Below are positions 6,749 through 50,318 of a stretch of DNA of 64,000 bases, piece after piece. The number at the start of each line of letters is the position of its first letter. The first letter of the stretch is position 1. The translations under genes were made by a program, and so were the position numbers. The stretch is from assembly GCF_001457415.1 (NCBI RefSeq), contig NZ_LN881720.1:124001-188000 (forward strand), read 5' to 3'. The stretch is from Gorillibacterium timonense (GTDB lineage Bacteria > Bacillota > Bacilli > Paenibacillales > NBRC-103111). A model generated the notes under the pieces. That model made no database searches. It was given only the letters and a program-made list of their open reading frames with translations, and was not told the DNA's origin.

Positions 6749-7881
6749 TTCTGTCGGGCTATTACGGCTTTCACAACAGCGGCGATGAAGCGGTGCTTCA
6801 GTCCATCCTGCTTGCCCTGGAGGCTGAAGCGAAAAGGGCGGGCATCGCCGTCGAGCCTATCGTCTTGTCGGGTGATCCCGCTTGGACGGAGAAGATGTAC
6901 GGCGTCCGGGCCGTCCACCGGATGAAGCCGGCGGAGGTGCTCTCGGCTGTCCGGAAGGCCGACGGACTCATCAGCGGCGGCGGCAGCCTCCTGCAGGATG
7001 CCACCGGCAAGCTGACGATTCCGTATTATCTCGCGATCCTTAAGCTAGCCCAGTGGCTCGGCAAGCCGACGTTCATCTACTCCCAGGGAATCGGGCCTGT
7101 GGGGCAGAGGGCTTTCTTTGGTCCCATCCGGCGGACGTTCTCCCGCTGCCAGTATGTATCGGTCCGGGACCGGGAATCGGCGGAGCTGCTGAGACGCATG
7201 GGGCTGACCGCCCCCGTCGATATCGTCCCGGACCCGGTCATGGGGCTGCCACTGCGTTCAGCGGCTGAGGATGGCCGGCTCCCGGATAGCGGGACGGCGC
7301 TTGCCGCTGGTTTAAGCGGCGCTTCGCAAGAGCTGGCCCCGGTTATCGGCGTGTCCGTCCGCTTCTGGAACGCCGACCGCTCGGAGCTGGCGGCCATCGC
7401 GGAGGCGCTGAACCGGCTCCGCCGCGAGCGCCGGGTCGAGGTGCGCTTCCTGCCGTTCCATCTGCCGGATGACGAGGAGGCCTCTCGTGAAGTGGTCCGG
7501 CTGATGGGCGCGGAGGACGCGCCGGATGTGCGGATCGCGGACGGGCTCGACCACCCGCAGGCGATGCTCGCGGCGGTCGGCGAATGCAGCCTGCTGATCG
7601 GCATGCGGCTGCATTCGCTGATCTATGCCGCGTCGCAGCATGTGCCGGTGGCCGGCATCTCCTACGATCCGAAGATCGACCAGTTCCTCTCGCGGCTCAA
7701 GCGGACCGCCGTCGCCTCCGTGGACCGGATCGACGCCGCTCTCGTCGCCCGGGAGTCGGCGCTCCTGCTCGATTCCCGAGAAACCTGGACCGCGGCCTCC
7801 CGCCCGTTGATCGATGCACTCAAAAACGAAGCCCACCGTCCGGCCGAGCGGATCGTGGACCTGCTCGTGAAGAAAGGTTGA
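6724..7881 (+). CDS. csaB: Polysaccharide pyruvyl transferase CsaB
   Basis: 385 aa. CsaB transfers pyruvate from phosphoenolpyruvate onto the secondary cell-wall polymer, making the ketal that SLH domains bind. Visible family features: LSGYYGFHNSGDEAVLQSIL at the N-terminus, ISGGGSLLQDATGKLTIPYY, FIYSQGIGPVG, VSVRDRESAELL and the C-terminal GMRLHSLIYAA with its conserved His. The ATG at 6724 lies inside the end of the preceding gene and follows GGTTGGAGAAA. The gene sits four bases before a tagA-like gene and within 3 kb of two SLH proteins, which supports an anchoring role. Confidence 0.95.
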   Translation: MGRAVHQLVLSGYYGFHNSGDEAVLQSILLALEAEAKRAGIAVEPIVLSGDPAWTEKMYGVRAVHRMKPAEVLSAVRKADGLISGGGSLLQDATGKLTIPYYLAILKLAQWLGKPTFIYSQGIGPVGQRAFFGPIRRTFSRCQYVSVRDRESAELLRRMGLTAPVDIVPDPVMGLPLRSAAEDGRLPDSGTALAAGLSGASQELAPVIGVSVRFWNADRSELAAIAEALNRLRRERRVEVRFLPFHLPDDEEASREVVRLMGAEDAPDVRIADGLDHPQAMLAAVGECSLLIGMRLHSLIYAASQHVPVAGISYDPKIDQFLSRLKRTAVASVDRIDAALVARESALLLDSRETWTAASRPLIDALKNEAHRPAERIVDLLVKKG

Positions 7882-7885
7882 GCAT

Positions 7886-8629
7886 ATGAAACCCGGAATT
7901 CCCGCCGTTTCGTTGTACGGTGTACCCTTCAGCAAGTTGAATTTCAAGGAGACGGTGGACCTGCTCGTCCAAACCGTGGAAGCGAAAATGCCCGCGCAGG
8001 TCATCACGGCCAACCCGATCATGGTGATGAAGGCGCTTGAAGATCCGGCCTATATGGCGATGATGCAGAGGGCCGAAGTGATCGTGCCGGACGGCGCCGG
8101 AGTGGTATGGGCAACAGGCTATATCGGCAAGCCGGTAGCGGAGAAGGTCGCCGGAATCGAGCTGATGCACGAGCTTTTTCGCATCGGAGAAGAACGCGGC
8201 TGGAGGGTGTATCTGCTCGGGACCGCTCCCGATACGATCCGCATCGCCGTGGAGAAGCTGCGGGAGCGCTATCCGAAGCTGATCCTGGCCGGCTACCGCG
8301 ACGGATATTTCAAGGCGGATCAGGATCAAGAGGTGCTGTCCGAGATTCAGCAGACGGCTCCCGATCTGCTCTTCGTCGGCCGCGGAGCCGATACGCAAGA
8401 GCCTTGGATCGACCGCTACAAGGAAGAGCTCGGCGTGCCGCTTGTCATGGGAGTCGGGGGGAGCCTCGACATTCTCGCAGGCAAGCTGAAACGGGCTCCG
8501 AAGTGGATGATCAAGCTGCGCTTGGAATGGTTTTACCGGCTCGCGAAGGAGCCGACGCGCTACAAGCGAATGCTGGTATTACCGAAATTTGCCCTAAAAG
8601 TGATGAGAGATAGAGAAAAACTGCAATAA
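7886..8629 (+). CDS. tagA: WecG/TagA/CpsF-family glycosyltransferase (probable ManNAc transferase)
   Basis: 247 aa, the usual length for this family. The enzyme adds N-acetylmannosamine to the undecaprenyl-diphosphate-linked GlcNAc, the second step of linkage-unit synthesis. Family motifs are TANPIMVMKAL, IVPDGAGVVWA with the catalytic-type Asp, LLGTAPDTI, GYRDGYF and the C-terminal RLAKEPTRYKRM. It follows csaB after four bases and ends the operon at a strong terminator. The acceptor is assumed from the family; the polymer might be teichoic-acid-like or a secondary wall polymer. Confidence 0.9.
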   Translation: MKPGIPAVSLYGVPFSKLNFKETVDLLVQTVEAKMPAQVITANPIMVMKALEDPAYMAMMQRAEVIVPDGAGVVWATGYIGKPVAEKVAGIELMHELFRIGEERGWRVYLLGTAPDTIRIAVEKLRERYPKLILAGYRDGYFKADQDQEVLSEIQQTAPDLLFVGRGADTQEPWIDRYKEELGVPLVMGVGGSLDILAGKLKRAPKWMIKLRLEWFYRLAKEPTRYKRMLVLPKFALKVMRDREKLQ

Positions 8630-8639
8630 AAGCAAGAAT

Positions 8640-8667
8640 AACCCGGCAAACCAAGGTTTGCCGGGTT
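8640..8667 (+). terminator. Rho-independent terminator after tagA
   Basis: Perfect 13-bp stem AACCCGGCAAACC (8640-8652) and GGTTTGCCGGGTT (8655-8667) with the two-base spacer AA, followed by ATTTGTT. It closes the csaB-tagA operon. Confidence 0.9.
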
Positions 8668-8749
8668 ATTTGTTAGTTTCGCTGGTTTGTCTATTTGGTT
8701 ACATGTTATTATAGTAGGATAGAAGCTAGTAGTGGCTTGCGTTTTTGGC

Positions 8750-8766
8750 GTGCCCTTACCGGGCAC
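8750..8766 (+). promoter_or_regulatory. Small hairpin in the leader of the tagO-like gene
   Basis: GTGCCC (8750-8755) pairs with GGGCAC (8761-8766) around TTACC. No T tract follows, so it is not an obvious terminator. A possible promoter lies upstream: TTTGTC, 18 bases, TATAGT (8710-8715). Confidence 0.3.
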
Positions 8767-8837
8767 TGACTTGAGTTTGTGAATACCATAACCGGAATCA
8801 TAAAAGATTGGCAGAGAAGTTAAAGGGGTTGACAGAT

Positions 8838-9935
8838 TTGAATTGGTGGATTTACATGATCGGTTTTGCCGCTTCCATGATGCTTTCCGTCCTGCTGACG
8901 CCGCTCATGTCCAAATTTGCAAGAAAAATTGGCGCCGTATCCATCCCCAATCATCGAAGCGTTCATACGAAGCCGATGCCGCTGCTCGGCGGGTTGGCTA
9001 TTTTTCTAGCATTTGTGCTCTCCTATTTCATCGTAAGTCCCGGCATCGTCTATAACGATAAGGACAACGTTGCCATCGGCCTCATTCTAGGCGGTATTGT
9101 CATCGCCCTCACCGGCGCGCTGGACGACAAGTTCGACCTTTCGCCGAAGCTGAAGCTGCTCGGCCAGATCATCGCTGCGGGCATCGCCGTTTCCTTCGGA
9201 CTGGAGATCGACGTGGTCAACATTCCGTTCAGTAGCTCCCTGCCGATCAACGAAGCCTGGATCAGCATCCCGCTGACCGTTCTGTGGATCGTTGGCGTCA
9301 CCAACGCGATCAACCTGATCGACGGGCTCGACGGTTTGTCGGCCGGGGTTTCGAGCATCTCCGCCGCTACCATTCTCGTGGTGGCCGTGCTTATGCCGTA
9401 TTCCAATCCGATGGTCATCCTGCTGTGCCTGCTTCTCATCGGCAGCTCCCTCGGGTTTCTCGTCTTTAACTTCCACCCGGCCAAAATCTTCATGGGCGAC
9501 TCCGGGGCTTTGTTCCTCGGTTACGCTTTGTCCATCTTGTCCATCATGGGTTACAAGCAGGCGACGATCGTATCCTTCCTCGTTCCGATCCTGATTCTCG
9601 GAGTGCCGATTTCGGATACGATGCTGGCGATCGTCCGGCGCAAGCTGAACAACAAGCCGATCACCGTTGCCGACAAGGGCCACCTGCATCACTGCTTGAT
9701 GAACCTGGGCTTCGGCATGCGCAAGACGGTTCTGATCATCTACGGCATCGCCGCCGCCTTCGGCCTGTGTGCCATCCTGATGACGCAGAAGCAGAACTGG
9801 GTGACGGTCATCCTCGTCGTCATCATTCTCTGCGGCCTGGAGCTTGGCGCCGAGTTCATCGGCATCATGGGCAAGAAGAAGAAGCCCGTGATCCACTTCC
9901 TGCAGCGCACCTTCGCCGTAGGAAAATCTAAATAA
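8838..9935 (+). CDS. tagO: Undecaprenyl-phosphate GlcNAc-1-phosphate transferase (MraY/WecA/TagO family)
   Basis: 365 aa from the TTG at 8838, chosen because AAAGGGG lies 9 bases before it; a TTG at 8808 is possible. About eleven membrane segments. Catalytic motifs: NLIDGLDGLSAG on the third cytoplasmic loop, IFMGDSGALFLGY, and the KGHLHHCLMNLG loop that recognises the UDP-sugar. It would move GlcNAc-phosphate onto undecaprenyl phosphate, the first membrane step for secondary wall polymer, supplying the substrate of the upstream TagA-like enzyme. It has its own leader and terminator. Confidence 0.93.
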   Translation: MNWWIYMIGFAASMMLSVLLTPLMSKFARKIGAVSIPNHRSVHTKPMPLLGGLAIFLAFVLSYFIVSPGIVYNDKDNVAIGLILGGIVIALTGALDDKFDLSPKLKLLGQIIAAGIAVSFGLEIDVVNIPFSSSLPINEAWISIPLTVLWIVGVTNAINLIDGLDGLSAGVSSISAATILVVAVLMPYSNPMVILLCLLLIGSSLGFLVFNFHPAKIFMGDSGALFLGYALSILSIMGYKQATIVSFLVPILILGVPISDTMLAIVRRKLNNKPITVADKGHLHHCLMNLGFGMRKTVLIIYGIAAAFGLCAILMTQKQNWVTVILVVIILCGLELGAEFIGIMGKKKKPVIHFLQRTFAVGKSK

Positions 9936-9985
9936 CACTTCAACCAAGGCAGTTGTCCTCAAATTCATCTCTCATGATACCCGGT

Positions 9986-10006
9986 CCCGAGCGGATCGGG
10001 TTTTTT
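9986..10006 (+). terminator. Rho-independent terminator after the tagO-like gene
   Basis: CCCGA (9986-9990), loop GCGGA, TCGGG (9996-10000), then six T residues. The stem is short but GC-rich. Confidence 0.8.
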
Positions 10007-10138
10007 CGTTCGGTCCGGCATTCTGACAAATACCAATTATTTCTACATGTCATTTCGAGCTTGGGGTAAAAAAATCAGAGCTTCCCACCGATAACCAAGA
10101 TATAGATTATTTTCCGGCGAAGCTGCGGCGAAGGAGGA

Positions 10139-10171
10139 GCAGGGGCCCCGCCAGCCGGGTTGCGAACCTGC
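10139..10171 (+). promoter_or_regulatory. GC-rich structured leader before the first SLH protein gene
   Basis: GCAGG (10139-10143) can pair with CCTGC (10167-10171), enclosing CCCG (10147-10150) and CGGG (10156-10159). The ribosome site AAGGAGG follows about 28 bases downstream. No known riboswitch family was recognised. A cis-acting role is possible but unproven. Confidence 0.3.
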
Positions 10172-10214
10172 ACTAACCGCTTCAGGAGATCATGAATCAC
10201 AAGGAGGACTTATC

Positions 10215-13200
10215 TTGGCACACGCAGCAAAAAAATGGTTGAGCGTCGCGCTTGTTTTTTCATTACTCGTTGCTCTCATTCCGGCAAAGGTTAACGCCGC
10301 CGGAGCGTCTATTATGATCACCGGGCTTTACACGACAACGGACAGTCAGGTAAGTCCGGTTACCGGCAAACCGTTGGATGACAGCAGCATTCCACGCTAT
10401 ACCTCCAACCCGATCACCGTCCGAGCCAATGTGACGGGGATCAGTGAGGAACAGATTCAGAACGTCTTTTATGAAATCTATAACCCTGATACGAAGCAGA
10501 CGGTCGTTGAAAAGCTGAACAAGGCGACCTTGAGCGGCAATCAGATTGTCTTTAACAACGTCACGTTGACCGAGGGCTTAAACCGAATCATCATCAAAAT
10601 GGGAACGGACAGCTCCGGCGTAGCTTCCCCTCCGGGCTGGGCCTATTTGACCTCCGTCACAAACATCACGAACCTGATGATTGGGGAAGAGGCGTTTGTG
10701 GACGGCGGCATTTTTCCGAAGAAGCCGATGGAAAATACCACCAACAGCCTGACCATCACGGGTACAGCGCAGAACTCGACCAAGGTCGAGGCAACGGCAC
10801 TGGGAGTGAACGGAACCCAGACCACCAGCTTCCCGGATGGCTTTTTCTCCTTTACCATCAAGAACGACGAGTCCGCTGATGCATCATCGTTTGGCGGATT
10901 TAACCTGAAGGTCGGCGATAACCAAATTTTTATTATCGCGTCCAACACGAGCACCCTGAGTTCTTATCGGATTCAACGCTCGTTCGTTTATGACAACGGC
11001 AAGGCGTTCGCGTTCCACACGTATGTGAAGCCTGGTAAAGGTGCGGATACGGAATATCAATTACTTGCCTCCAGTCCGGTTGTGAACAAAAATACCATCG
11101 ATTTGAAGACAGATATCAAGGTCCCGTTGAGCAGCGGAGCATTGAAATATGATCAGGTTAAGATTTCGGCGGGCGGAGCCGATACTTTAGTGAATCTCTC
11201 CACCCCGGACGGCGTCAACCTGAAGCTGGATGCTGCCCAGTCTACAAGTACCTACAAGGTGTTCAACTACACCAAACAGCTTACTTTATCCACGGATCAT
11301 CGTCAGCTGCAGGACATCGACTTCGAGTTTACCAATACCACCAGTGCGGCGGTAAACCCGTTCAAACAAACGTTCACGATCACCTATGTTGATGCCAACA
11401 GCCCTACAGTGACTTCTGTGGGCATTGGCTCCGATAAGGCGATCTCCAATCTCGACTTCACCCAGATGTCTTCCGTGACCGACGTGACCGAGCTGCCCCG
11501 CAAGCTGCGCATCAACACGGTGAATGCAACGAAGGTGCAGATCAAGATCGATGGGAAAGAAGTCAAAGCAGGAGAAGCTGTCACCTCCAATCAGGTTGAC
11601 TATATGCTCGATGAGATGCTCAACGGACAGCATACGATCACGTTTACCCCATATGATGCTGCTTCGCCCAAAGCGGTGGACAGTGTCACTTACACACTGA
11701 ATATCAACGTAGCACCGTATATCATTCTGACTAACCTCACCAAAGGACAAGTTTTCCAGGATGTGATCACACCGTTTGCCAACAACAAGCTGAACGGGCG
11801 ACTGGTCAATGTGTCTCAGGAAGAAATGAAGAATGTGAAGATTTCCGTCAATGATGACGAGATGGTTACCTTGCAATCCTCCCTGGCGACATCGGGGGGC
11901 AAGTATACGGGGGAATTCTCGTTTGATGTATCGGGCAAGACCTTCCTGAACGGACTCAATACGATTAAATTCGTGATCTACAACGGCGGCGTCGTCGTGA
12001 CGAGGGTGACCTACGAATTCTTCTACTATAAAGATTCCGCACCGACCTTTACGTCGGTCTATCCGGAAAACACGAATACGAACGACTTTATACCCGGTTC
12101 GGTGACCGATACCTATTCCACCCAGCTAGATAATGTCGTAATCAAGGGCCAATTGACCGGAGCGACGAGCATGAAGCTGACGGTTCGCGCCAACAATGCG
12201 GAAGGAGCGCCGGTTTCTCGGTCACAGACGATTACGAACTTGTCTACGAAGGTTATCGGAAGTCCGGAAAGCACCGGAGATTTTGATTGGAATAACGCCA
12301 TTTTCTTTACTACAGCCAAGATTAGCTCGACGACGTTCTCGACCGAGACGATAGCCCTTAGCAAATATGGCGACACGACCTTCGAATTTGAAATCACCAA
12401 CGCCTCGAACATTAAGGTCACCCGTACCTTAACCATTCGTCGCGAGCCGCTCCCCTTCAAAATCACGTTCCCAACACTGATCACGAATGCAAAGAGCGAG
12501 CTGCAGGCGAACATCACGAGCAACTATCAAACGATTGAGATTACCTCTGAGGGAGCTACTCAGCTTTTGTTCGGCAAGGTAGAAGCGAAGAAGGTCTCTC
12601 CAGGCAGCTTCTCCTACGAGGTGCGCAATCTCAAGTCAGGCAAGAACAGCATCAAGTTTACAGTGGTTAAGGGTACGTCAAAGATTAACGGGACGCTCGT
12701 CCTGAACTATGCGGATACACCTGTTGAAGGGGCTCGTTATAAGACGACGCTCGCCAGCAGCTTGAAAATCTTCAACAATCAGATCCAATTGAGCTTTCCG
12801 AAGAATACATTCCTGATGCGGAACGATAATACGACAAAACCGGACCTGTACAGTGAGCGTTCCTTGCTTTTCGGCATTGCGAACGGAACTACCGGCCAAC
12901 TTGTCGACCGGGATACCGACTATTATGCGACCAGCTCGGAGCTGCAAAGCCTGCTTATGGAGCGCACCGGCCGCTTCTTGCCGGCAAGCCCGCTTTATTA
13001 CATGGATGCCGGGTACGCTTGGTCAAAAATGCTGGAGCCATCTCCTGATAATGTGAATAAAGGCGGTGTACTCCCCTTTGCTCCTAGTCTCATAGGAACG
13101 AGGATTGGAGGAGACGGGCCGACATATTTACCCTTTAACAATCGCTCCGCTACCGACAATCTGATAACCAATCAGGTGGGCAAGCTGACCCTTCAGTACG

Positions 13201-37683: not shown

Positions 37684-37731
37684 GGGTCCACAAGGACGTG
37701 GACCTCACACCATTACATGGAGGTAATAACG
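37684..37731 (+). promoter_or_regulatory. CsrA-binding sites in the flagellin leader
   Basis: Site 1: a hairpin GTCCAC (37686-37691), loop AAGGAC with GGA exposed (37692-37697), GTGGAC (37698-37703), which fits the CsrA consensus ACARGGAUGU. Site 2: the ribosome site itself, ATGGAGGTAATAACG just before the ATG at 37732, also with GGA. This two-site layout is that of the Bacillus hag leader. Confidence 0.75.
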
Positions 37732-38571
37732 ATGAGAATTAATCACAACATTTCTGCCATCAATACGAACCGTCAACTGGGCATCAACGTTGGCGCCCAA
37801 AGCAAATCCATTGAGAAGCTGTCTTCCGGTCTTCGCATCAACCGTGCTGGCGATGACGCTGCAGGGCTGTCCATCTCCGAAAAAATGCGCGGCCAAATCC
37901 GCGGTTTGGATCAAGCTTCCCGTAACTCGCAAGACGCTATCTCCTTGATTCAAACGGCTGAAGGCGCACTGAATGAAACGCATTCCATCCTTCAACGTCA
38001 ACGCGAGTTGGTTGTTCAAGCCGGTAACAGTGGAACGCTGGAAGATGAAGATCTTACCGCCATTCAAGATGAAATTACGGAATTGAACAATGAGTTGGAT
38101 GGTATCTCCACACGCACCGAGTTCAACGGAAAGAAACTTCTGGATGGTAATTTTGACAACACCTTCCAAATCGGTGCGAATACCGGACAAACCCTCGCTC
38201 TGTCGATCAATGCAACGACTGGTGCAGGAGCTACAGCCGCCTTCAATTCTACTGGTCTTGGTGTTGATGGTATCAATGTAACAACTGTCGGTAATACCGA
38301 CACGGATCTTGCATCAGTTGATGATGCTATTAAAGCCGTATCTGCCGCTCGTTCCAAACTGGGCGCAAATCAAAACCGTCTGGAACACACGATCAAGAAC
38401 CTGGATAATGCTTCCGAGAACCTGACGGCTGCTGAATCGCGCGTTCGTGACGTTGACATGGCTAAGGAAATGATGGAGCAAACGAAACAAGCCATCCTTA
38501 CTCAAGCTTCTCAAGCTATGCTGGCTCAAGCAAACCAACTGCCGCAAGGCGTTCTGCAATTGCTTCGTTAA
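37732..38571 (+). CDS. hag: Flagellin (main, Hag-type)
   Basis: 279 aa, start ATG 37732 after GGAGGTAATAACG. Conserved D0/D1 N-terminus ([42 protein letters not shown]) and C-terminus ([37 protein letters not shown]) flank a short central region of about 80 residues. In B. subtilis Hag is 304 aa, so this is a compact filament protein. It lies behind fliW-csrA and its own hairpin-containing leader. A second larger flagellin lies 8 kb downstream. Confidence 0.96.
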   Translation: MRINHNISAINTNRQLGINVGAQSKSIEKLSSGLRINRAGDDAAGLSISEKMRGQIRGLDQASRNSQDAISLIQTAEGALNETHSILQRQRELVVQAGNSGTLEDEDLTAIQDEITELNNELDGISTRTEFNGKKLLDGNFDNTFQIGANTGQTLALSINATTGAGATAAFNSTGLGVDGINVTTVGNTDTDLASVDDAIKAVSAARSKLGANQNRLEHTIKNLDNASENLTAAESRVRDVDMAKEMMEQTKQAILTQASQAMLAQANQLPQGVLQLLR

Positions 38572-38591
38572 TTCTCTTTCTGCATTACAGC

Positions 38592-38624
38592 AGGGACTCT
38601 AGGTTCTCTAGGGTCCTTTTTTTT
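38592..38624 (+). terminator. Terminator after hag
   Basis: AGGGACTCTAG (38592-38602) with CTAGGGTCCT (38608-38617), one bulge, then eight T residues. It isolates hag from the glycosyltransferase genes. Confidence 0.85.
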
Positions 38625-38686
38625 ACCTTTGATCATAACAGGATAGATTCTTGTAAACTATAGATTCCGAACTGAGGGGAAGAGCA

Positions 38687-40573
38687 TTGAAGACCATATC
38701 CTTATGCATGATTGTCAAGAATGAAGAAGAATACCTTGCTCGGTGCTTGGCTAGTGTTGCTGACTCGGTTCAAGAAATCATTATTGTTGATACGGGGTCA
38801 ATCGATCGGACGGTGGAGATTGCACGGTCTTACCAGGCTAAAATTCTGCTCTATCAGTGGGACGGCGATTTTGCCTCAGCAAGGAATATCGGACTGAAAG
38901 CAGCCACGAGCGACTACATTCTTGTTCTTGACGCGGATGAATATGTGGATGATATGGCGACTTTGCAAGACGATCTTTCCTATTCTGCTGATTGTTATTT
39001 GCTCCCCTTCATCAATCAAATCTCGGGAGGCAGGAGCTATTCTCACACGGCAGTCCGATTATTTCTTAATTCTCCGATTTATCGTTATCAAGAGAAGATT
39101 CATGAGTACGTCCAGTTTCGCCAAGAATCGACTCGGTTAGGAAAGACTTTAATTCACCATGATGGGTATATGCAAGAAATACTTGAAAAAAAAGACAAGA
39201 ACAGACGAAACCTGGATATTCTCGAGGAGTTGGTTAAACAATCTCCCTCGGGATATAACCTCTTTAATTTAGCTCGTCAGTACCAATCGTTAGGCAAACA
39301 TGATGAAGCGATTAATTATTTTGAACAGGCATATGAGAAGTCCAAAGGAGAAACATACCTCTCCCACCTCTTGTTTGGCATGGGGACCTCATTGCATGCA
39401 CTAAAGCAATATGAGGAAGCAATTCAGATTCTTCAAAGTGCCATTACGGTTTTTCCCCGAAACCCTGATTTGCACTATACGTTAGGTGAGGTTTATCTGG
39501 ATGCTGGGTACCATAAGGATGCTGAGTTGTGCTGGGAAAAGTGTTTGTCCCTCGGTGACATTCCAACAGAGGATTACTTTAAATATGCCATTTCTTTTGA
39601 AGGAACAGGAAGCTATTTCCCTGGCATCCAACTATCGGAGTTGTACCTTAAACATAATCAGCCTGTTTTAGCTATGGATTATATAAGTCCAATTTTAGAG
39701 AAGAAGGAGCATTTTCTCAAAGCGGTACCGTTTTATCTTAAAATAGCTAACTATGTCCAAATTCCAATAGATGATCAATATATGTTTATCAACCAATTGT
39801 ACCGTTTAAAAAAGCGGGATGAGCTTTTTGATCTTGTGTCAGTTTTATGGAAGCTGAGACATCAACTGCTTACCAAATATCTTGATGACTACAACATCCA
39901 GTTGCCGAATGACGACTTGGCTGTAGCCAAATTAGTTTCTGGCGAATACGAGAAAGCAACTGAATTATTTCTACAAGCAAGGAATCCTGCACTAAGTGAT
40001 CTCGTCATCTTGGCACTGGCAGTGAAGGATGATGATTGCTTAAGAATGCACAAAGATCAATATAATTTGAGTGACAAGGAATGGAAGGTACTCTTTCAGT
40101 TGGATAAAGAAGTAAGAAATCAAAATAATCCTTTATCTGATTTGCTTGAAGGTCTTTTGTTGGAAGTGTGCGAGAAAGCAATATGGATGAATAAAAATGA
40201 CATTCTGCAAAGAGTGTCAGACATGCTTTGGAAGAGTAATGAGAACATAAAGCTACGCCAATTCAACCTGTTAAACTCATTTGGAAAGAGGGAATTGGCA
40301 TCCGAGATGATATTTGAAATGTATCAAGCAAATTATAGCCCAAGAGTAGCTGCTACCCTTTTGGGTTCTTTGATTAATAAAGGTCTAATCAATGATGCGA
40401 GACCGGTTTTTGAAAAATTGTGCAAGGAAAAGAAAATGGATTATTTCGGTTATTCTAATTGTTATGACTTCTTGATGATGGATGGCAATGAGGCTGAGGC
40501 GAGACAATTAATGAAAGCAATGGCTACACAATTCCCTCATTCATTGTGGGCTTCATCAATGAACCAAGGATAA
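38687..40573 (+). CDS. Family 2 glycosyltransferase with TPR repeats
   Basis: 628 aa from TTG 38687 (AGGGGAAGAG upstream). Residues 1-190 are a GT-A domain: ISLCMIVKNEEEYLARCL, VDTGSIDRTVEI, the metal-binding LVLDADEY and a short catalytic segment (YRYQEKIHEYV). From about 190, helical repeats resembling tetratricopeptides run to the end (e.g. LGKHDEAINYFEQAYEKSKG, YEEAIQILQSAITVFPRNPDLHYTL). GT2-TPR proteins of this type often glycosylate proteins, as with the SunS bacteriocin transferases. Placed directly behind hag, it is a likely flagellin glycosyltransferase; this is inference. Confidence 0.88.
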   Translation: MKTISLCMIVKNEEEYLARCLASVADSVQEIIIVDTGSIDRTVEIARSYQAKILLYQWDGDFASARNIGLKAATSDYILVLDADEYVDDMATLQDDLSYSADCYLLPFINQISGGRSYSHTAVRLFLNSPIYRYQEKIHEYVQFRQESTRLGKTLIHHDGYMQEILEKKDKNRRNLDILEELVKQSPSGYNLFNLARQYQSLGKHDEAINYFEQAYEKSKGETYLSHLLFGMGTSLHALKQYEEAIQILQSAITVFPRNPDLHYTLGEVYLDAGYHKDAELCWEKCLSLGDIPTEDYFKYAISFEGTGSYFPGIQLSELYLKHNQPVLAMDYISPILEKKEHFLKAVPFYLKIANYVQIPIDDQYMFINQLYRLKKRDELFDLVSVLWKLRHQLLTKYLDDYNIQLPNDDLAVAKLVSGEYEKATELFLQARNPALSDLVILALAVKDDDCLRMHKDQYNLSDKEWKVLFQLDKEVRNQNNPLSDLLEGLLLEVCEKAIWMNKNDILQRVSDMLWKSNENIKLRQFNLLNSFGKRELASEMIFEMYQANYSPRVAATLLGSLINKGLINDARPVFEKLCKEKKMDYFGYSNCYDFLMMDGNEAEARQLMKAMATQFPHSLWASSMNQG

Positions 40574-40618
40574 AAAAATTGTGTTGGGATTAAAATTAAT
40601 GAAAGAAGGAATAACCCT

Positions 40619-42508
40619 ATGAAGACTTTTCGAGTGTTGACTGCAAGTCCCATTCGGCAGAGGCCAGTCGTGCTAAATGAATTCCTCTTGTCTTTAAAAA
40701 AGCTTAACCTACCAGGCATTGAGATGGACTTTCTATTTGTTGATGATAATGAAGATGCGATATCTAGTAAACTGTTGTTGGATTTTAAAAGGGATTGTGG
40801 AAATACCCGTATAGTAGTGGGGGAACAAGAAGGTTCTTATTTATGTAATGAGACGACTCATAATTGGAATGAAGAGTTGGTATGGAAAGTTGCAAGATAT
40901 AAAGATATTATGATCGATGATGCCAAGAATAGGGAATACGATTATCTCTTTCTAATAGATTCAGATTTGGTCCTGCATCCAGATACAGTAAAACATTTGA
41001 TTAGAACGGAAAAGGATATAGTATCTACAGTATTTTGGACTAAGTGGCAACCGGATATGCCCGAGCTACCTCAAGTATGGTTGCGTGACCACTATTCACA
41101 AGTACCTATGCGAAGAGGAGAAAATTTGTCCGAGCAAGAACAATTGAGAAGACATTCATCTTTTCTAAAACAATTACGGACTCCTGGAATCTACGAGGTT
41201 GGGGGTCTAGGGGCGTGTACACTCATCAGCAAGAAGGCGCTACACGCAGGAGTTAGTTTTAATGAAATTAAAAATATTTCTTTTTGGGGAGAAGATCGAC
41301 ATTTTTGTATAAGAGCTGCAGCTCTTGGCCTTCCCTTATATGTAGATACACATTATCCGGCTTTTCATATATATAGAGAATCTGATTTAAAAAAACTCCC
41401 TGCGTTTCAACTTGAAATTACTAAGGATCGAATTGCTGAAACATTGTATCTTGGTATCAGCGGGTTAGGCACTTATAACTATTTGTCAGGTTATCAAATA
41501 GATTGGACCACTTTCTTTGAGGGCTATTTAAAAGAGTCATTAGTTCAAACTGCTGTAAGTAATGAAAGTGAGCATCAAAGAAGCAAACTTAATACTAAAT
41601 CCACTATTTCCGAAATTAAATTTCGCTCTATAGATGAGCAAAAAGCTGTTGTGGAATTTGTTTTATCCCAACAAGGAATAAAAAATGACGAGTCCTTTGA
41701 CGAACTACTAGAATGCAGCGCCCAATTAATGCAAAAAGATGACGATTGGTTCATTGTTGAATTTGTAACACATGGGCAAAAGATACAAGAGGAGCCTAAG
41801 ATAAAGAGCGGAAAACCAAAGCTGACTTTATCCATGATAGTAAAAAATGAAGAAGATCATTATCTTAGAGAGGTCCTTACAGAGTGCAGACAATATATTG
41901 ATGAAGCTGTTATCATTGATGATGCAAGCACTGATAACAGTGTCGATATATGTAATGAAGTTTTGCAGGGCATCCCAATTCGAATTATCCGTAACACCGA
42001 AAGTAAATTCTCAAATGAAGTGGAACTGCGAAAACAACAGTGGGAAGAAACTCTCAAGACCAAACCAGACTGGATACTGAATATCGATGCTGATCAGATT
42101 TTTGAGAAGAGATTTAAGGATGAAGTGAAGGAACTAATCGATCAAGATGAAGTAGATGTTTATTATTTTCGATTATATGATTTTTGGTCGATGGATGAAT
42201 ATCGAGAAGATTCCTTTTGGTTTGCTCATAAAACATTTCGCCCCTTCCTATTCAGGTATCGTAAAGATGTTAACTATGTGTGGAAGGAAACAGCTCAACA
42301 TTGTGGGAGTTTTCCTGCAAATATCAATCAATTGCCCTCAGCTAAAAGCATCTTACGATTGAAACATTATGGGTGGGCAAAAGAAGAAGATAGAATCATC
42401 AAGTATAAACGATATCAAAAGCTAGATCCCAATGCGGAATATGGGTGGAAAGAACAGTATGAATCCATATTAGATCCGAAACCAAATCTTGTGAAATGGG
42501 TGGAATAA
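40619..42508 (+). CDS. Glycosyltransferase with two GT-A domains
   Basis: 629 aa. The first domain (residues 1-290) starts MKTFRVLTASPIRQRPVVL and has the metal-binding DYLFLIDSDLVLHPDTVKHL and WGEDRHFCIRAA. A helical linker (about 320-390) leads to a second domain starting PKLTLSMIVKNEEDHYLREVL with DDASTDNSVDI and NIDADQIF. Two transfer domains in one chain suggest building a short glycan in succession. AAAGAAGG stands before the ATG. It follows the GT2-TPR gene after 45 bases and is AT-rich. Probably part of flagellin or surface glycan synthesis. Confidence 0.86.
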   Translation: MKTFRVLTASPIRQRPVVLNEFLLSLKKLNLPGIEMDFLFVDDNEDAISSKLLLDFKRDCGNTRIVVGEQEGSYLCNETTHNWNEELVWKVARYKDIMIDDAKNREYDYLFLIDSDLVLHPDTVKHLIRTEKDIVSTVFWTKWQPDMPELPQVWLRDHYSQVPMRRGENLSEQEQLRRHSSFLKQLRTPGIYEVGGLGACTLISKKALHAGVSFNEIKNISFWGEDRHFCIRAAALGLPLYVDTHYPAFHIYRESDLKKLPAFQLEITKDRIAETLYLGISGLGTYNYLSGYQIDWTTFFEGYLKESLVQTAVSNESEHQRSKLNTKSTISEIKFRSIDEQKAVVEFVLSQQGIKNDESFDELLECSAQLMQKDDDWFIVEFVTHGQKIQEEPKIKSGKPKLTLSMIVKNEEDHYLREVLTECRQYIDEAVIIDDASTDNSVDICNEVLQGIPIRIIRNTESKFSNEVELRKQQWEETLKTKPDWILNIDADQIFEKRFKDEVKELIDQDEVDVYYFRLYDFWSMDEYREDSFWFAHKTFRPFLFRYRKDVNYVWKETAQHCGSFPANINQLPSAKSILRLKHYGWAKEEDRIIKYKRYQKLDPNAEYGWKEQYESILDPKPNLVKWVE

Positions 42509-42663
42509 ACAATGCAGACTATCCCGTGGATACCATTCAAAGTTATGAGATTGAGGCACTGGCCCCGGATGATGCATTAATTGAATTAAAAAAACTAATG
42601 TATAATGATCAGGCAGTGCTCCTTTATCACAATTTTCCTCGCATCTTCCGATATATCCTATAG
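42496..42663 (+). CDS. Possible small protein overlapping the glycosyltransferase end
   Basis: 55 codons starting at ATG 42496, which overlaps the preceding stop by 13 bases. The product would read MGGINNADYPVDTIQSYEIE near the start and end in FPRIFRYIL, with an acidic middle and a hydrophobic end. No good ribosome site is seen, so it would depend on coupling. Its stop lies inside the palindrome before the FliK-like gene. It may also be the remnant of a longer gene. Confidence 0.3.
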   Translation: MGGINNADYPVDTIQSYEIEALAPDDALIELKKLMYNDQAVLLYHNFPRIFRYIL

Positions 42664-42673
42664 AAGATATCGG
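42648..42673. promoter_or_regulatory. Palindromic CCGATA/TATCGG element before the FliK-like gene
   Basis: CCGATA (42648-42653) and TATCGG (42668-42673) with further inner symmetry (ATAT). It immediately precedes the ribosome site GGAGGGATC. CCGATAT is the sigma-D -10; a TAAA -35 is not evident. Confidence 0.45.
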
Positions 42674-42683
42674 AGGGATCGCG

Positions 42684-45182
42684 ATGAAAATCACCAACAG
42701 CCAATCCGGCGCAATGAATGCAGTTAACCAGGATCAACCGTTGGAGCTGCGCAAGGGGGAGACGTATCAGGCGATCGTCAAGGAAAAAAAGAGCGCGAAT
42801 GAGGCCGTTGTCCAAATTCGCGGAAAAGAGGTCTCTGTGAAGACAGATGGCCCCTTTCCCGCTGTTGGGGAAACGGTCTCTTTAACGATACAAGGACAAG
42901 ACGCGGACGGGATCAAGGCGAAAGTAGTCGATTCAGGGAAGACGGGAGCCCAGACGCAAAGCGGGCCGACCGGAACGTCGGTTAGCAGCAGCAGTGAACT
43001 GTACACACAAGACGATGGGCAGATCGCCAAGCTGCTGGCGGATAAAGGAATCCCTCTGACACGAGAGACGGCTGGAGTGATTCGGCAGTTCATGGAGACG
43101 GCTCCCGGAACCGTAGAGGAGAAGCTGGACAGCCTGCGCACGCTCCTGCGCAAGGGGATCGAAGTGACTGACGAGCAGCTGCAGGCGGTCCACCAGGCTT
43201 TGCATGGGGAGCCGCTGACGGCACAGGTCGACAAGCTGCTCACAGCGGCCAAGGCGGGTGGAGCCTCCGATGCCGAGCTTCGCCGACTGGTAAGCGAGCT
43301 GCGCAAGCTGACCGGAGGCAAGTCGGAGTGGGAACCGATCCTGCGTCAGTTGGTGCAGAAGCTGCAAGCAGCTACCGGCGGGCAGACCGGGTCTGCGGCG
43401 GAGACAGCATCCCGGCTGGCAGAGGCGCTGCGGCTCCTGAAGGCGGGACAGAGCAGCAAGGCGATGGAGGCTCTTAACCATCTCCTTCAGAATGGCGGAA
43501 GCGCAGGAGAGAATGCGGCCGGCACCGGCATAGATTCGACTTGGCCGTTCTTTAGCGGCACACAGGAATCGGAGTCGCTCGGGAAATGGCCAGCCTCTTC
43601 CAATTCCCTGTCAGGTCTTCTCGACAGGGTAAACACGGAGTCCAGCCTGAGCAGCGTTGTCTATGAAATCAAGGATCAGCTCCTTGGTTCATCCAAGTAT
43701 CCAGAAGAGAAAGCAGCGAAGTGGGAGCAGACCTTCTCCTCGGTTCGCCGTGAGCAGTTTGCCGGGAGAACGGAAGCAGCAAGGAAGTTGCTTCAAGCAG
43801 CCCTCCAGACGGAATTGGCCGAGGAGCTGAGGAATCAGGACATGACCCCGGTCGACTCCCCTGCCACGGACTTAGATGCCGTTTCGGGAAGTGCGGGAGC
43901 AGCGAGCGCCGCTTCGGCAGAGGCATCCGATTCGCTAACCATGATTGCATCCAGGCTCACCGAATCCATAAGGACCGACAATTATGATCTTAACAGCGAG
44001 CTCGCATCACTCGGCCTCTCTTCAAAGACTTTGATTGTCACTCAAGTGACAGCTCGGCTCAGCCAGGCGGCCAATGAGTTTCGGACGCTGAAGCGGGAAA
44101 TCTCCCGCAACCTGGACAATCTCATGAACTTGACCGTTACCTCGTCCAAGACCGTTCATCCTCAAGCAAAGGCTCTCCTTGAATCCTCCATCGATCTGCT
44201 GGACAAGGCCATATTGAAAAGTGACATCACGATGCTGACGGATATGGGGACAGAAAAACGTTTGCTACAGGCAAGCGGACAACTTGCAGCCGCCCGCAAG
44301 CAGTTGATGAATGGAGACACAGCGGCGGCTCGGGAGATTTTCGACCGGGTGAAGACGAGTCTTGATACCTTGAACTGGAAGCCTACCGATGTAAAGGTTC
44401 GTCATATGCTGATGGGCGAGACAGATGCCAAGACCGCTATCGATACCCACAAGCTATCTGCTGAGTGGGAAAAGCTTGCTTCTTCCATGGGGCGCAACGA
44501 CGGTTCTGCCAGACATCTGTATGAAGGCGTCCGTTCGCTTGGCTTGAACCGTGATAGTGAAGCGGCTCAATGGCTAGCTAATTCGGGGTCGAACTCATCG
44601 GGCCAAGGGCAGCAATCCCGACAGGCTTTTGATCAGAACATCAAGTCCATTCTGTTAAAGCTGGCTCAGGATGACTCTTCCCCCGTTGCGAAGCAAGCGG
44701 AACAAGCGCTTCAGAATCTAACCGGGCAGCAGCTGCTGAATAAGACGGAGACGGGAAGCTCCACGCAAAGCATGATGCTTCAGATTCCCGTCCCTCTCAC
44801 GAATCAAATCGCCCCCGTAAATGTCTTTGTCCAATCCCGCAAGGAAGGGGAAAAGATGGACTGGGAAAATTGCAGCCTGTATTTTGCCTTGGAGACCCAA
44901 AAGCTGGGGAGCTTAGGGATTCAGATCATGGCGAGCGACCGCAATCTGGCGATTACAATGAAGAACGATCGGCAAGACTTCAAGCAGCTCATGGAGCCCT
45001 TGGTCAGTTCCTGCAAGGAGAAGCTGCAGGAGATCGGGTACCGGGTTTCGCAGATTCAGTATTCCCCGCTAACCATCCAAGCGGACACTTTAAAAGCATC
45101 GGAGCGGATAAGATCGAAGCCCATCGAACCTTCCAACCCACCCACGTCGTTTCCCGTGAAAGGATTTGATTTCAAAGTATGA
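42684..45182 (+). CDS. Large FliK-like flagellar hook-length/export protein
   Basis: 832 aa. The N-terminal 90 residues are a beta-rich domain (LRKGETYQAIVKEKKSANEAVVQIRGKEVSV). A long alanine/serine/glutamine-rich, mostly helical middle follows. The last 130 residues (MMLQIPVPLTNQIAPVNVFVQ, LYFALETQKLGSLGIQIMAS, YRVSQIQYSPL) resemble the FliK C-terminal domain that switches the export gate from rod/hook to filament substrates. The TGA is overlapped by a FlhB-like gene, the pairing seen in Bacillus ylqG-ylqH. The family is inferred from weak resemblance, not from a motif. Confidence 0.7.
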   Translation: MKITNSQSGAMNAVNQDQPLELRKGETYQAIVKEKKSANEAVVQIRGKEVSVKTDGPFPAVGETVSLTIQGQDADGIKAKVVDSGKTGAQTQSGPTGTSVSSSSELYTQDDGQIAKLLADKGIPLTRETAGVIRQFMETAPGTVEEKLDSLRTLLRKGIEVTDEQLQAVHQALHGEPLTAQVDKLLTAAKAGGASDAELRRLVSELRKLTGGKSEWEPILRQLVQKLQAATGGQTGSAAETASRLAEALRLLKAGQSSKAMEALNHLLQNGGSAGENAAGTGIDSTWPFFSGTQESESLGKWPASSNSLSGLLDRVNTESSLSSVVYEIKDQLLGSSKYPEEKAAKWEQTFSSVRREQFAGRTEAARKLLQAALQTELAEELRNQDMTPVDSPATDLDAVSGSAGAASAASAEASDSLTMIASRLTESIRTDNYDLNSELASLGLSSKTLIVTQVTARLSQAANEFRTLKREISRNLDNLMNLTVTSSKTVHPQAKALLESSIDLLDKAILKSDITMLTDMGTEKRLLQASGQLAAARKQLMNGDTAAAREIFDRVKTSLDTLNWKPTDVKVRHMLMGETDAKTAIDTHKLSAEWEKLASSMGRNDGSARHLYEGVRSLGLNRDSEAAQWLANSGSNSSGQGQQSRQAFDQNIKSILLKLAQDDSSPVAKQAEQALQNLTGQQLLNKTETGSSTQSMMLQIPVPLTNQIAPVNVFVQSRKEGEKMDWENCSLYFALETQKLGSLGIQIMASDRNLAITMKNDRQDFKQLMEPLVSSCKEKLQEIGYRVSQIQYSPLTIQADTLKASERIRSKPIEPSNPPTSFPVKGFDFKV

Positions 45183-45475
45183 TGTACAAATACTTCAATC
45201 CGAAAGCCAAAAGCAACGCAAGCGGCAAATCAGCGGCAGTTCTGCGTTATGATAGTGGAACGGACAAAGCACCCGTTGTGATCGCCCAGGGGAAGGGACA
45301 TGTGGCCCGACAAATTATCGAGATGGCCAAGATGAATGATATTCCCATGCAGGAAGATCCTCTGCTGGTCGAGAACCTCATCGACATGGATCTTGGAGAG
45401 AATGTACCTCCACAACTATACTCGGTCATCGCCGAGGTTCTGCTCATGATTGAGGATATGGAGAAAAAAGCTTAA
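45179..45475 (+). CDS. FlhB C-terminal-domain-like export switch protein (YlqH type)
   Basis: 98 aa; overlaps the end of the preceding gene by four bases (ATGATG). The chain AAVLRYDSGTDKAPVVIAQGKGHVARQIIEMAKMNDIPMQEDPLLVENLIDMDLGENVPPQLYSVIAEVL equals the cytoplasmic part of FlhB that follows its autocleavage loop; the NPTH motif and the membrane domain are absent. Such FlhX proteins can stand in for the cleaved piece of FlhB. Pairing with a FliK-like protein suggests a substrate-switch partner. Confidence 0.88.
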   Translation: MMYKYFNPKAKSNASGKSAAVLRYDSGTDKAPVVIAQGKGHVARQIIEMAKMNDIPMQEDPLLVENLIDMDLGENVPPQLYSVIAEVLLMIEDMEKKA

Positions 45476-45533
45476 GAAACCTGTTAAATTGTCCGATAAA
45501 GGAAGTAGGAACGACATAACGGGAGGTAGAACT

Positions 45534-45983
45534 GTGGCGACGGACGTGCTAACGGATGAAGGGCTTTATCAGAAGACTCCACAGCAGTTGACAACGATTT
45601 TGTATGAGGCTTGTCTGGAGCGTCTGGATCGCGCAGTCGAGTGCCTTGACCGGAAGGATTATTTAGAGGTTAATCAACTGCTGCAGAAATGCAACGACAT
45701 TTTATATCGCCTAGGAGGCGGTATCAACTATGAAGCGGGTTTGATCGCCGACCAACTCGATGCTTTATACAATTATATGGCCGAGCGGCTCATTCGTGCG
45801 AATGTCCATAAAGACAAAGCGGCGGTGCTTGAAGTACGAAAGCTCCTTGGGATCATCCACGAGGCTTGGACCACTGCATCCCATAAAGGCAAGGACGATC
45901 AGACCGGAATCGCCAAACAACGTGCCCGAGCCTATGATCAGGAAATCCTTTATCCCCAAGGCAATGTAAATTTGAGAGAATAG
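45534..45983 (+). CDS. FliS-like flagellar export chaperone paralogue
   Basis: 149 aa from the GTG at 45534 (GGGAGG upstream). It has a FliS-type helix order: [49 protein letters not shown] and [38 protein letters not shown], with a longer C-terminal tail (about 25 residues more than FliS). Located directly before the second flagellin. The true fliS lies 5 kb downstream, so this may be a dedicated chaperone for that flagellin. Confidence 0.82.
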
Positions 45984-46000: not shown

Positions 46001-47674
46001 ATGCGTATCAACCATAACATTCAAGCGCTCAATGCTTACCGCAACTTGTCTCGAAATTCTACGGACATGTCCAAACATCTGGAACGCCTCTCCTCTGGTC
46101 TCCGCATCAACCGAGCGGCCGATGACGCGGCAGGACTTGCCATCTCCGAGAAGATGCGCTCCCAGATCCGGGGCCTGGACATGGCCGAACGGAACACGAT
46201 GGACGGCATCTCGCTCATTCAGACCGCCGAAGGCGCGCTCGGTACGACCCATGAAATCCTGCAGCGTATGCGGGAACTAGCTGTGCAAGCTTCGAATGGA
46301 ACACTTGAGGAAGCGGACCGTGAGGCGGTTCAGTCCGAGATCGACCAGCTTACGCAGGAGATCGACCGGATCGCTCGAACGACACAATTCAACTCAAAGT
46401 CGCTCTTGCGCGGCACCGCCGATAGCAAAGCGTTCGTATCCAGCGGTTCTACGCCTCTCACCTATGCAGGTAACGGAAGCTGGGAAGGCGTCGTCAGCGC
46501 CGATCCCAGTGCGGCGGGAACGGCTGACCTAACCCTGGCTACTGCTTTTGGCTCGGGAACAGGAGATGCTGAAACGTTTACGGTAAATGGTAAAACCTAC
46601 GAGATTCAGACGGATGCTACTCCGGTCTCTCCAGGTAATATTGCGGTTCCTGTAGCTTGGACTGGTTCGGATGAGGACAAAATCAATAATACGATGACCG
46701 CACTTAAGAATGCTATTCAAGCCAATGATCCTGACCTTGTGGCCAGCATCAAGACATCGGCGGTTGCCGCCGGCTCCAGCGGGGTATTGACTATTCAGAC
46801 GGCTCAACTTGCTACACCAGCCACTGCAAGTGCGATTGATGTAGCTACAACGGCAGGTGGCGCGTCATTCTCTGGAACAAGCTTAAGCGCACCTGCAACC
46901 TCGAGCCTATCCAATACTATCAATCTTGCCTTCAATTCGGTCCCCAAAGAAGGGGATGAGCTGGTGATTGATAATTATAGCTTTATTTTCACCAGTGGCT
47001 CAGTAACTCCGCCAGCTATTGCGATCAATCCCAGTGGCAAGAGTGTGAGCGATATTTTAACGGAAATTGCCGGGAACCTATCTCCAACGACCGACCTGAA
47101 CAGTGTCTCCGTTGTCGGCAATTCCCTTCTCCTTACCACAACATCAACAGATGACGGAACGGCGGGAAGCGGCCTTGAAATCCGAATTACCGACAAGGAT
47201 TTTACAACTAATTCCGGCAAAGATCTGAAAGTGAATATGCAGATTGGAGCTAACTCCGGAGAAAATATGGAAGTCTTGATCGGGGTTATGGATGCAGCTC
47301 GTTTGGGACTCGCCCGCCAAGCGGATCACAAGGGGATCATTAAGGATGCCGGTGTGGATGCTGTTGCAGGACTGGATCTAAGCTCATCCCAGGATGCAGC
47401 AGCTGCGGCACTCGGGGTCATTGATAACTCAATTAAATTGGTTTCGGAAGAACGATCCAAACTTGGTGCTTATCAGAACCGGATGGAACACACGGTTGAC
47501 AACCTTGGCATCGCGAGCGAAAACCTGACTTCCGCCGAATCGCGGATTCGCGACGCGGATATGGCGATGGAGATGTCGACCTTCACGAAGACAAACATCA
47601 TCAACCAAGCTGCGACGGCCATGCTTGCTCAAGCGAACCAGCTCCCTCAAGGGATCCTGCAGTTGCTCAAATAG
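46001..47674 (+). CDS. Second, larger flagellin
   Basis: 557 aa, about twice the length of the hag product. N-terminal D0/D1 ([43 protein letters not shown]) and C-terminal part ([39 protein letters not shown]) are intact. The central 260 residues are threonine/serine/alanine-rich and beta-like, so they would project from the filament. The ATG follows GGAGGTATCGACCTT. A nearby glycosyltransferase island and a FliS-like gene suggest a second glycosylated filament protein. Confidence 0.94.
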
Positions 47675-48343: not shown

Positions 48344-48745
48344 ATGACTGCGAACGATCTATCGATTTCTGGGACAGGAGCGGCTGCGCCAGTTGATCGG
48401 GCGGCTTCCGTAAAACCGGTGAAGTTGGATGTACCGGGTGTGAAGCAGGGGAATGCGCCAGTGATTGCAAATGTGAAGCAGTTGAAGCAAGCAGAAGCGC
48501 GCGGGGAACAGGTTCCGGTTAGCGAGGGGCAGCTGATTCGCTCCATCGAGCGGGCGATCAAGGCAATGGAAGGGGCAAACACGCAGCTCGAATTCTCCAT
48601 TCATGGGAAGACCAAACAAATCATGGTCAAGGTGTTGAACAAGGACACAGGCGAGACCATCCGTGAAATTCCACCGGAAAAGACATTGGACTTCGTTGCA
48701 AAGATGTGGGAGATGGCCGGTATTTTGGTTGATGAACGTAGATAA
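48344..48745 (+). CDS. flaG: FlaG protein
   Basis: 133 aa. The C-terminal domain (TQLEFSIHGKTKQIMVKVLNKDTGETIREIPPEKTLDFVAKMWEMAGILVDERR) is the FlaG family hallmark; the N-terminal 60 residues are low complexity. FlaG affects filament length. It begins the flaG-fliD-fliS-fliT run. GGAGGACAGGGT precedes ATG. Confidence 0.9.
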   Translation: MTANDLSISGTGAAAPVDRAASVKPVKLDVPGVKQGNAPVIANVKQLKQAEARGEQVPVSEGQLIRSIERAIKAMEGANTQLEFSIHGKTKQIMVKVLNKDTGETIREIPPEKTLDFVAKMWEMAGILVDERR

Positions 48746-48785
48746 GTAAACTGTACATACACGAATAGACAGGAGGTTGAGATAC

Positions 48786-50318
48786 ATGGTTCAACGAATT
48801 AGTGGTCTGGCGAGCGGTATGGACATTGACAGCATCGTTAGCAAAATGGTTCAGGCTCAGCGAGCGCCGCTTGATAAACTGGTGCAGAAGCGGCAGACTT
48901 TGCAGTGGCAGCGAGAAAACTACCGCGATTTGAATACGAAGATCCTTGATTTTCGCAATAATAAGCTTTCGAATTATAGGATGACGTCAACGTATAGCGC
49001 TACGAAGGTGAGTGTAGGAGGAAACACGGAAGCCATATCGGCTAAAGCGAGCGGGACTGTAACGGGGACGAATATGACAATATCAGTTGGGTCGCTTGCC
49101 ACCGCTTCAACCAATACCAGTTCCACTCAAGTTAGTCTCACGGACATTGCGACTTTAAAAGGGGACGCAAAGCTAACACAAGATTATAAGTTCAAGATCA
49201 ATGGAACCGTGGTAGAAGCAAAGAAAGATGAGACGTTGTCGACCGTGCTTGCCCGCATTTCGAAGGATACGAATGTATCCGCCTTTTATGACGATGTCAC
49301 AAAGAAAGTATCCTTCATAGCCAAAAACACTGGCGAAATGGATTACTTCACTTATCCCGACGCTAGTGATCCGACCAAAAAAGTCGCCACGTCGAAAGTC
49401 AGTCGAATCCAGTTTGAGGATATGGATGGAACCAATTTTCTCAATGGTATTTTAAACGCCTATACGACCAATGGTACAATTGCCAAACAGGCTTCCGTAA
49501 CAATCAATGGCCTGACAACTACCCGTGATTCTAATACCTTTACTGTCAATGGAGTAGAGATCACTTTACTGAAATCCAGCAGCGGGACTCCGTCCACTCT
49601 TACTATGAGCGCGGACACGGACAAGCTTGTCGATACCGTAAAGGCTTTTGTCAATGATTACAATGAGATACTTAAGACGCTTACGGGCACTCTCAATGAG
49701 ACGCGCTATCGCGATTATGCTCCTCTTACGGATGAGCAAAAGAAGGATATGAGCGAAACCCAGATCGAGCAGTGGGAGAAAAAGGCCAAAAGTGGTCTGT
49801 TATATAACGATTCTGTTGTGAGTAGCGCCGTACAGAGTATGCGAAACTCCATCATCTCTACTGTAAATACCGGATCAACTAGCCCTTATCAAACTCTTTC
49901 TTCTATAGGGATTACGACCGGTACTTATCTTGAGAACGGGAAGCTGTATCTGGATGAAGCAAAGCTTCGCAAAGCCCTTGAGGCTGATCCGGATGCCGTC
50001 AAAAACTTGTTTACCCCGAAGACGGAATCGGTAGACGGTGAAAAGAAGCTCGGGGTTGCAGAGCAGATGTACCAAAGCCTCAATAACGTTCAAAAATCGA
50101 TTATGACCAAGATCGGTTACGCTAGCCTTGAGGATTCCACCTCTCAGGATCAGAGTATTATCGGCAAGCAGATTTATAACCTGACTAAGCAGATCAGAGC
50201 GGGCGAAACGAGGATTTCCGATCTGGAGGATCGTTATTACAAGCAATTTACAGCGATGGAAACAGCTATAAACAAGGCGAACAGCCAGAGTACGTACTTA
50301 GCTAACGCCTTTAGTTGA
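48786..50318 (+). CDS. fliD: Flagellar filament cap protein FliD (HAP2)
   Basis: 510 aa. ATG at 48786 after AGGAGGTTGAGATAC; the in-frame TTG at 48777 is too near the site. N-terminal ISGLASGMDIDSIVSKMVQAQRAPLDKL and C-terminal domain with QIYNLTKQIRAGETRISDLEDRYYKQFTAMETAI are family signatures. The protein caps the filament and folds flagellin. Followed by fliS after 46 bases. Confidence 0.95.
   Translation: MVQRISGLASGMDIDSIVSKMVQAQRAPLDKLVQKRQTLQWQRENYRDLNTKILDFRNNKLSNYRMTSTYSATKVSVGGNTEAISAKASGTVTGTNMTISVGSLATASTNTSSTQVSLTDIATLKGDAKLTQDYKFKINGTVVEAKKDETLSTVLARISKDTNVSAFYDDVTKKVSFIAKNTGEMDYFTYPDASDPTKKVATSKVSRIQFEDMDGTNFLNGILNAYTTNGTIAKQASVTINGLTTTRDSNTFTVNGVEITLLKSSSGTPSTLTMSADTDKLVDTVKAFVNDYNEILKTLTGTLNETRYRDYAPLTDEQKKDMSETQIEQWEKKAKSGLLYNDSVVSSAVQSMRNSIISTVNTGSTSPYQTLSSIGITTGTYLENGKLYLDEAKLRKALEADPDAVKNLFTPKTESVDGEKKLGVAEQMYQSLNNVQKSIMTKIGYASLEDSTSQDQSIIGKQIYNLTKQIRAGETRISDLEDRYYKQFTAMETAINKANSQSTYLANAFS

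Follow-up and report, generated by a model that had tools for sequence, protein, structure and literature searches.

Between the main flagellin gene hag and a second export/flagellin block, the DNA of Gorillibacterium timonense analysed here (the window, a stretch of 64,000 nucleotides) carries an AT-rich segment with two intact genes, hereafter GTA and GTB. We read them as a two-gene flagellin-glycosylation cassette placed between hag and flaG, in a slot known for exchangeable genes, and estimate the probability of this reading at about three in four. Judged from sequence comparison, the cassette would represent an already described kind, here in a form that appears to pair an enzyme of GmaR architecture, without MogR, with a two-domain transferase. 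The features of the locus, in window coordinates, are as follows.

37717 to 38571, forward strand: hag, main flagellin, 284 aa (Flagellin_N, E 2e-45; Flagellin_C, E 2e-29); conserved left border.
38592 to 38618, forward strand: terminator-like hairpin behind hag, a 12-pair stem followed by a T run; consensus match only.
38687 to 40573, forward strand: GTA, 628 aa; GT2, TPR and helical C-terminal domain, predicted GmaR architecture.
40619 to 42508, forward strand: GTB, 629 aa; two predicted GT-A domains, residues 1-260 and about 396-629.
42684 to 45182, forward strand: FliK-like (Flg_hook) protein, 832 aa; Flg_hook, E 7e-07, just under the Pfam cut-off.
45179 to 45475, forward strand: FlhB C-terminal-domain-like protein, 98 aa (Bac_export_2, E 3e-17).
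45450 to 45983, forward strand: FliS-like chaperone, start uncertain (FliS, E 2e-26).
46001 to 47674, forward strand: second flagellin, 557 aa (Flagellin_N, E 7e-50), much larger than hag.
48344 to 50318, forward strand: flaG and fliD, forming the conserved right-hand edge of the slot according to gene order in relatives.

A two-changepoint likelihood fit placed the AT-rich segment at positions 38558-42670 (38.2% G+C inside, log-likelihood gain of 113), its right border at 42670 being marked by the FliK-like gene that opens the second block. The AT-rich island that a preliminary description, made from the sequence alone, had seen behind hag is thus confirmed, with both ORFs intact; as that description had also stated, no mobile gene was seen, and neither was a tRNA. 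GTA has 39.7% G+C and 41% GC3, and GTB 37.0% and 31%, compared with genome means of 54.2% and 64.5% calculated for 194 ORFs of at least 250 aa, the sample being drawn from 398 kb of this genome. Lower G+C than that of GTA was found in 4.6% of these ORFs, and lower than that of GTB in 1.5%. The contrast is smaller with the nearest neighbours than with secA, and part of the dip belongs to late flagellar genes, since low GC3 is likewise seen in hag (6th percentile) and fliD (9th percentile).

GmaR is both a GlcNAc transferase for flagellin and the antirepressor of MogR (PMC9638930), and both the sequence and the AlphaFold2 model of GTA (pLDDT 89.5) indicate that it is an enzyme of the same architecture, with a GT2 domain, TPR and a helical C-terminal domain in that order. 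The gene starts with TTG, 8 bases downstream of GAGGGG (a candidate ribosome site). Pfam recognised Glycos_transf_2 (E 2e-23) followed by TPRs, in agreement with the earlier assignment of one transferase as GT2 plus TPR, and the D82-A83-D84 motif was invariant in 34 homologues. Of the natural sequences with a solved structure, a GT domain of GmaR matched the N-terminal part best (22ao, E 1e-32; E 2e-56 by profile). Listeria GmaR and GTA are 31% identical over residues 4-334 (342 columns, E 2e-41), and profile comparison gave 100% over 383 columns. After residue 385 there is little sequence similarity, and the likeness of the linker/antirepressor part is at the fold level only: the model superposed on the TPR-linker-antirepressor structure of GmaR (7x9r) with Z 21.6 and rmsd 4.4 over 427 of 448 residues, at 15% identity. 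A Z of 25.7 was obtained with SunS for the GT and first TPR part; high Z values can arise by chance for helical repeats, but both these matches stood well above the other TPR proteins listed.

Assignment of either protein as a SunS peptide S-glycosyltransferase was rejected (TIGR04195 of NCBIfam has a cut-off of 350 bits; GTA scored 94 and GTB 22), as was that of a Maf flagellin glycosyltransferase, the MptE-like family PF01973 of Pfam being unmatched in both. Neither protein matched the defence-system models, and comparison of GTA with plasmids and of GTB with phages gave no hit that spanned the greater part of the query.

The genomic setting of GTA homologues is flagellar. GTA was matched at E 1e-50 or better in 81 of the 395 genomes of the order sample, some of them by the N-terminal part alone. 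All 35 full-length homologues examined were in a flagellar locus, 32 of them directly downstream of a flagellin gene and the remaining three with other genes intervening. This position is shared by GTA homologues across several genera of the order. By contrast, only one of nine loci matching GTA mainly by its N-terminal part was flagellar (Fisher p 5e-8, from genomes that are related and hence not independent).

The likeness to the Listeria monocytogenes protein (PMC9638930; locus L335) extends to the domain order, the TPR plus C-terminal fold, the flagellar locus and the length (628 aa for GTA, 637 aa for GmaR). GTA lies directly behind flagellin, whereas gmaR in L335 lies two genes upstream of it. 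We identified the Listeria gene, annotated in its record as a glycosyltransferase, as gmaR from the 637 aa that it encodes (PMC9638930), from agreement with the 7x9r sequence and from its neighbours; it is found amid flagellin and chemotaxis genes on a plasmid-labelled record (L335, NZ_LR134399.1). This record and NZ_CP030101.1, both labelled as Listeria monocytogenes plasmids and both with a gmaR match, look chromosomal, one of them being 2.9 Mb long.

The fold match to 7x9r also raises the question of whether GTA might be mainly a regulator, a GmaR-like antirepressor whose transferase activity is secondary. We consider this very improbable. Reports of MogR are confined to Listeria and the Bacillus cereus group (PMC7793685), and its DNA-binding family PF12181, matched at E 8e-79 in the Listeria record used as a positive control, was not found in the G. 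timonense genome nor in 36 other GTA-bearing genomes (37 in total), although another repressor is possible. In addition, GTA has Phe at the position of the MogR-contacting Asn545 of GmaR, the alignment being weak there. The known partner of GmaR is thus removed, and a regulatory role of the C-terminal domain may remain. The GmaR architecture of GTA and the missing MogR match in GTA-bearing genomes go beyond what the preliminary description contained; they place GmaR, known as a temperature switch of Listeria, within a wider family behind flagellin genes for which MogR is apparently dispensable. We tentatively suggest, at slightly less than even odds, that the GmaR antirepressor fold is ancestral to a widespread MogR-free family of flagellin glycosyltransferases and that Listeria later recruited it for switching motility genes; the role of the C-terminal domain in Paenibacillus-like bacteria would then be to recognise flagellin or to bind another regulator. 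As the wider family appears not to need MogR, the order in which enzyme and switch arose becomes testable.

GTB has a single Glycos_transf_2 match in Pfam (residues 406-549). Its predicted model (mean pLDDT 90.8; pTM 0.60, domain placement being uncertain) shows a second GT-A domain at residues 1-260, so that the earlier designation of this transferase as having two GT-A domains is right; a middle part of helices and beta-strands joins them. Both DXD motifs (residues 114-116 and 490-492) were invariant in 29 homologues. The fold of the N half is best matched by the collagen galactosyltransferase ColGalT1, and by sequence the C half comes nearest to GmaR and SunS. Human ColGalT1 likewise has two GT domains in one chain, but it is about 14% identical to GTB and the two superpose loosely over their full length (rmsd about 19), meaning that only single domains match. 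A full-length relative of GTB (53%) is present in the flagellar locus of another genome (G051), and the arrangement hag-GTA-GTBn was also seen in Anoxybacillus, Cytobacillus depressus, Paenibacillus gallinarum, Saccharibacillus and a Bacillus.

Among 80 loci with GTB homologues (L171-L250), 11 were flagellar, 23 contained collagen-like ORFs, none had both and 46 had neither; collagen-like ORFs were found in 0 of 92 background loci, a set of own-genome samples and flagellar loci that is not a matched control. Since GTB homologues are often in non-flagellar clusters, GTB may have another acceptor. GTA and GTB might then modify some other surface molecule, such as a collagen-like protein of the spore surface or a wall polymer, their place behind hag being incidental, and the ColGalT1-like N half would fit such a role. 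The genome itself offers a parallel at 6191-11987 of locus L152 (G000:C7, about 1622-1628 kb), where a GT2-TPR gene and a fusion gene of GTB-N-like and GT2 parts flank a BclA-type collagen-like protein, mirroring the flagellin arrangement. We nevertheless regard this explanation as improbable, given that collagen-like ORFs and flagellar genes never occurred together in the 80 loci and that every full-length GTA homologue was flagellar. The split looks like the result of transferases being encoded beside their acceptors, and suggests a simple rule by which such enzymes tend to adjoin the genes of the proteins they modify, flagellin or collagen-like. SgtA of Clostridioides difficile, a GT2-TPR enzyme like GTA on the basis of the published description, puts GlcNAc onto Thr of the protein encoded next door; at 358 aa it lacks the extended helical C-terminus of GTA, and its acceptor is the collagen-like BclA3 (PMC7157674).

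We compared the locus with those of relatives from outside the genus, in which genes were called mechanically. The conserved flanks are flgK-flgL-DUF6470-fliW-csrA-hag on one side and flaG-fliD-fliS-raiA on the other. When both borders were seen, the slot between hag and flaG/fliD was empty in 21 of 42 loci, contained only extra flagellins in two and other genes in 19, among them single GT2-TPR genes in some slots and MptE-like (Maf-type) proteins in the three occupied slots that were checked for their identity. The variable slot within conserved flagellar flanks proposed earlier is therefore borne out (19 loci occupied, 23 empty or with flagellins only), the same genes and composition are not shared by all relatives, and the reading as a flagellin-glycosylation cassette is supported both by this variability and by the setting of the GTA homologues. 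In Geobacillus, flagellin glycosylation islands of divergent G+C occupy the same slot (De Maayer and Cowan 2016, PMC5109656). Like the segment described here, they contain glycosyltransferases between the flagellin gene and flaG and are variable in content; unlike them, the present cassette consists of two transferase genes only, with no sugar-biosynthesis, maf or transposase gene, and the FliK/FlhB-like/FliS/flagellin block also lies between it and flaG.

The composition of the cassette points to lateral acquisition, and lateral transfer is supported by composition, by patchy occurrence and by one well-supported disagreement between trees in relatives: the GTA tree united L308 and L311 (98/98), which the flank tree separated. 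No donor was found in the GTA tree, where the G. timonense protein forms a long branch of unsure place. Alternatively, the cassette could be an old, vertically inherited resident, its low G+C being a habit of the gene class or of the slot and no mark of transfer. This is less likely, though it has a real basis in the general deficit of slot genes relative to their flanks (mean -4.6 G+C points, negative in 35 of 42 loci, Wilcoxon p about 1e-6), measured on another set, of 42 loci with occupied slots, which includes loci picked for GTA/GTB homologues and two duplicate pairs, and in the shared position of GTA homologues in several genera. The deficit in the window (-12.8 points; GC3 -25) was, however, the second-largest of the 42, and some homologues match their flanks (54% against 53% in L310, 46% against 47% in L314), showing that low G+C is not obligatory; the union of L308 and L311 also argues against simple inheritance. 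The cassette may have been swapped by recombination, as the preliminary description had supposed.

How the two enzymes might act can be outlined from homology and position, on which the proposal of glycosylation itself depends. GTA would act in the cytoplasm, bind flagellin through its TPR part and put the first sugar on Ser/Thr of the flagellin central region, which in hag has 12 Ser/Thr in 54 residues and is the proposed acceptor; the central region of the second flagellin (77 Ser/Thr in 327 residues) is a possible further one. By analogy with GmaR and SgtA, at about 31% identity, this sugar is probably GlcNAc, taken from UDP-GlcNAc. Ahead of export, the two domains of GTB would then lengthen the glycan by one or two sugars. 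No sugar-nucleotide genes are present in the cassette, which fits the use of housekeeping donors. The hairpin between hag and GTA counts against the cassette reading; no site for a sigma-D-type promoter pattern was found before GTA, and the cassette would have to be reached by read-through past the hairpin or by an unseen promoter.

Several minor observations concern the neighbouring genes. A 54-aa ORF at 42496-42660, in a frame other than that of GTB, overlaps the last bases of this gene and stops just before the FliK-like gene; we considered it as a gene remnant, and found no family and no clear relative for it. The second flagellin, in the same locus as hag, is accompanied by its own FliS-like gene. 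A diverged second copy of the FliK-like and FlhB-C-like pair (42684-45475 in the window) lies elsewhere in the genome, next to the genes for RNase HII and a UPF0102 protein, the loci for such pairs outside the window being L153 (8438-10614) and L197. This second copy resembles ylqG-ylqH of B. subtilis. A similar pair is present in the flagellar locus of Cytobacillus depressus.
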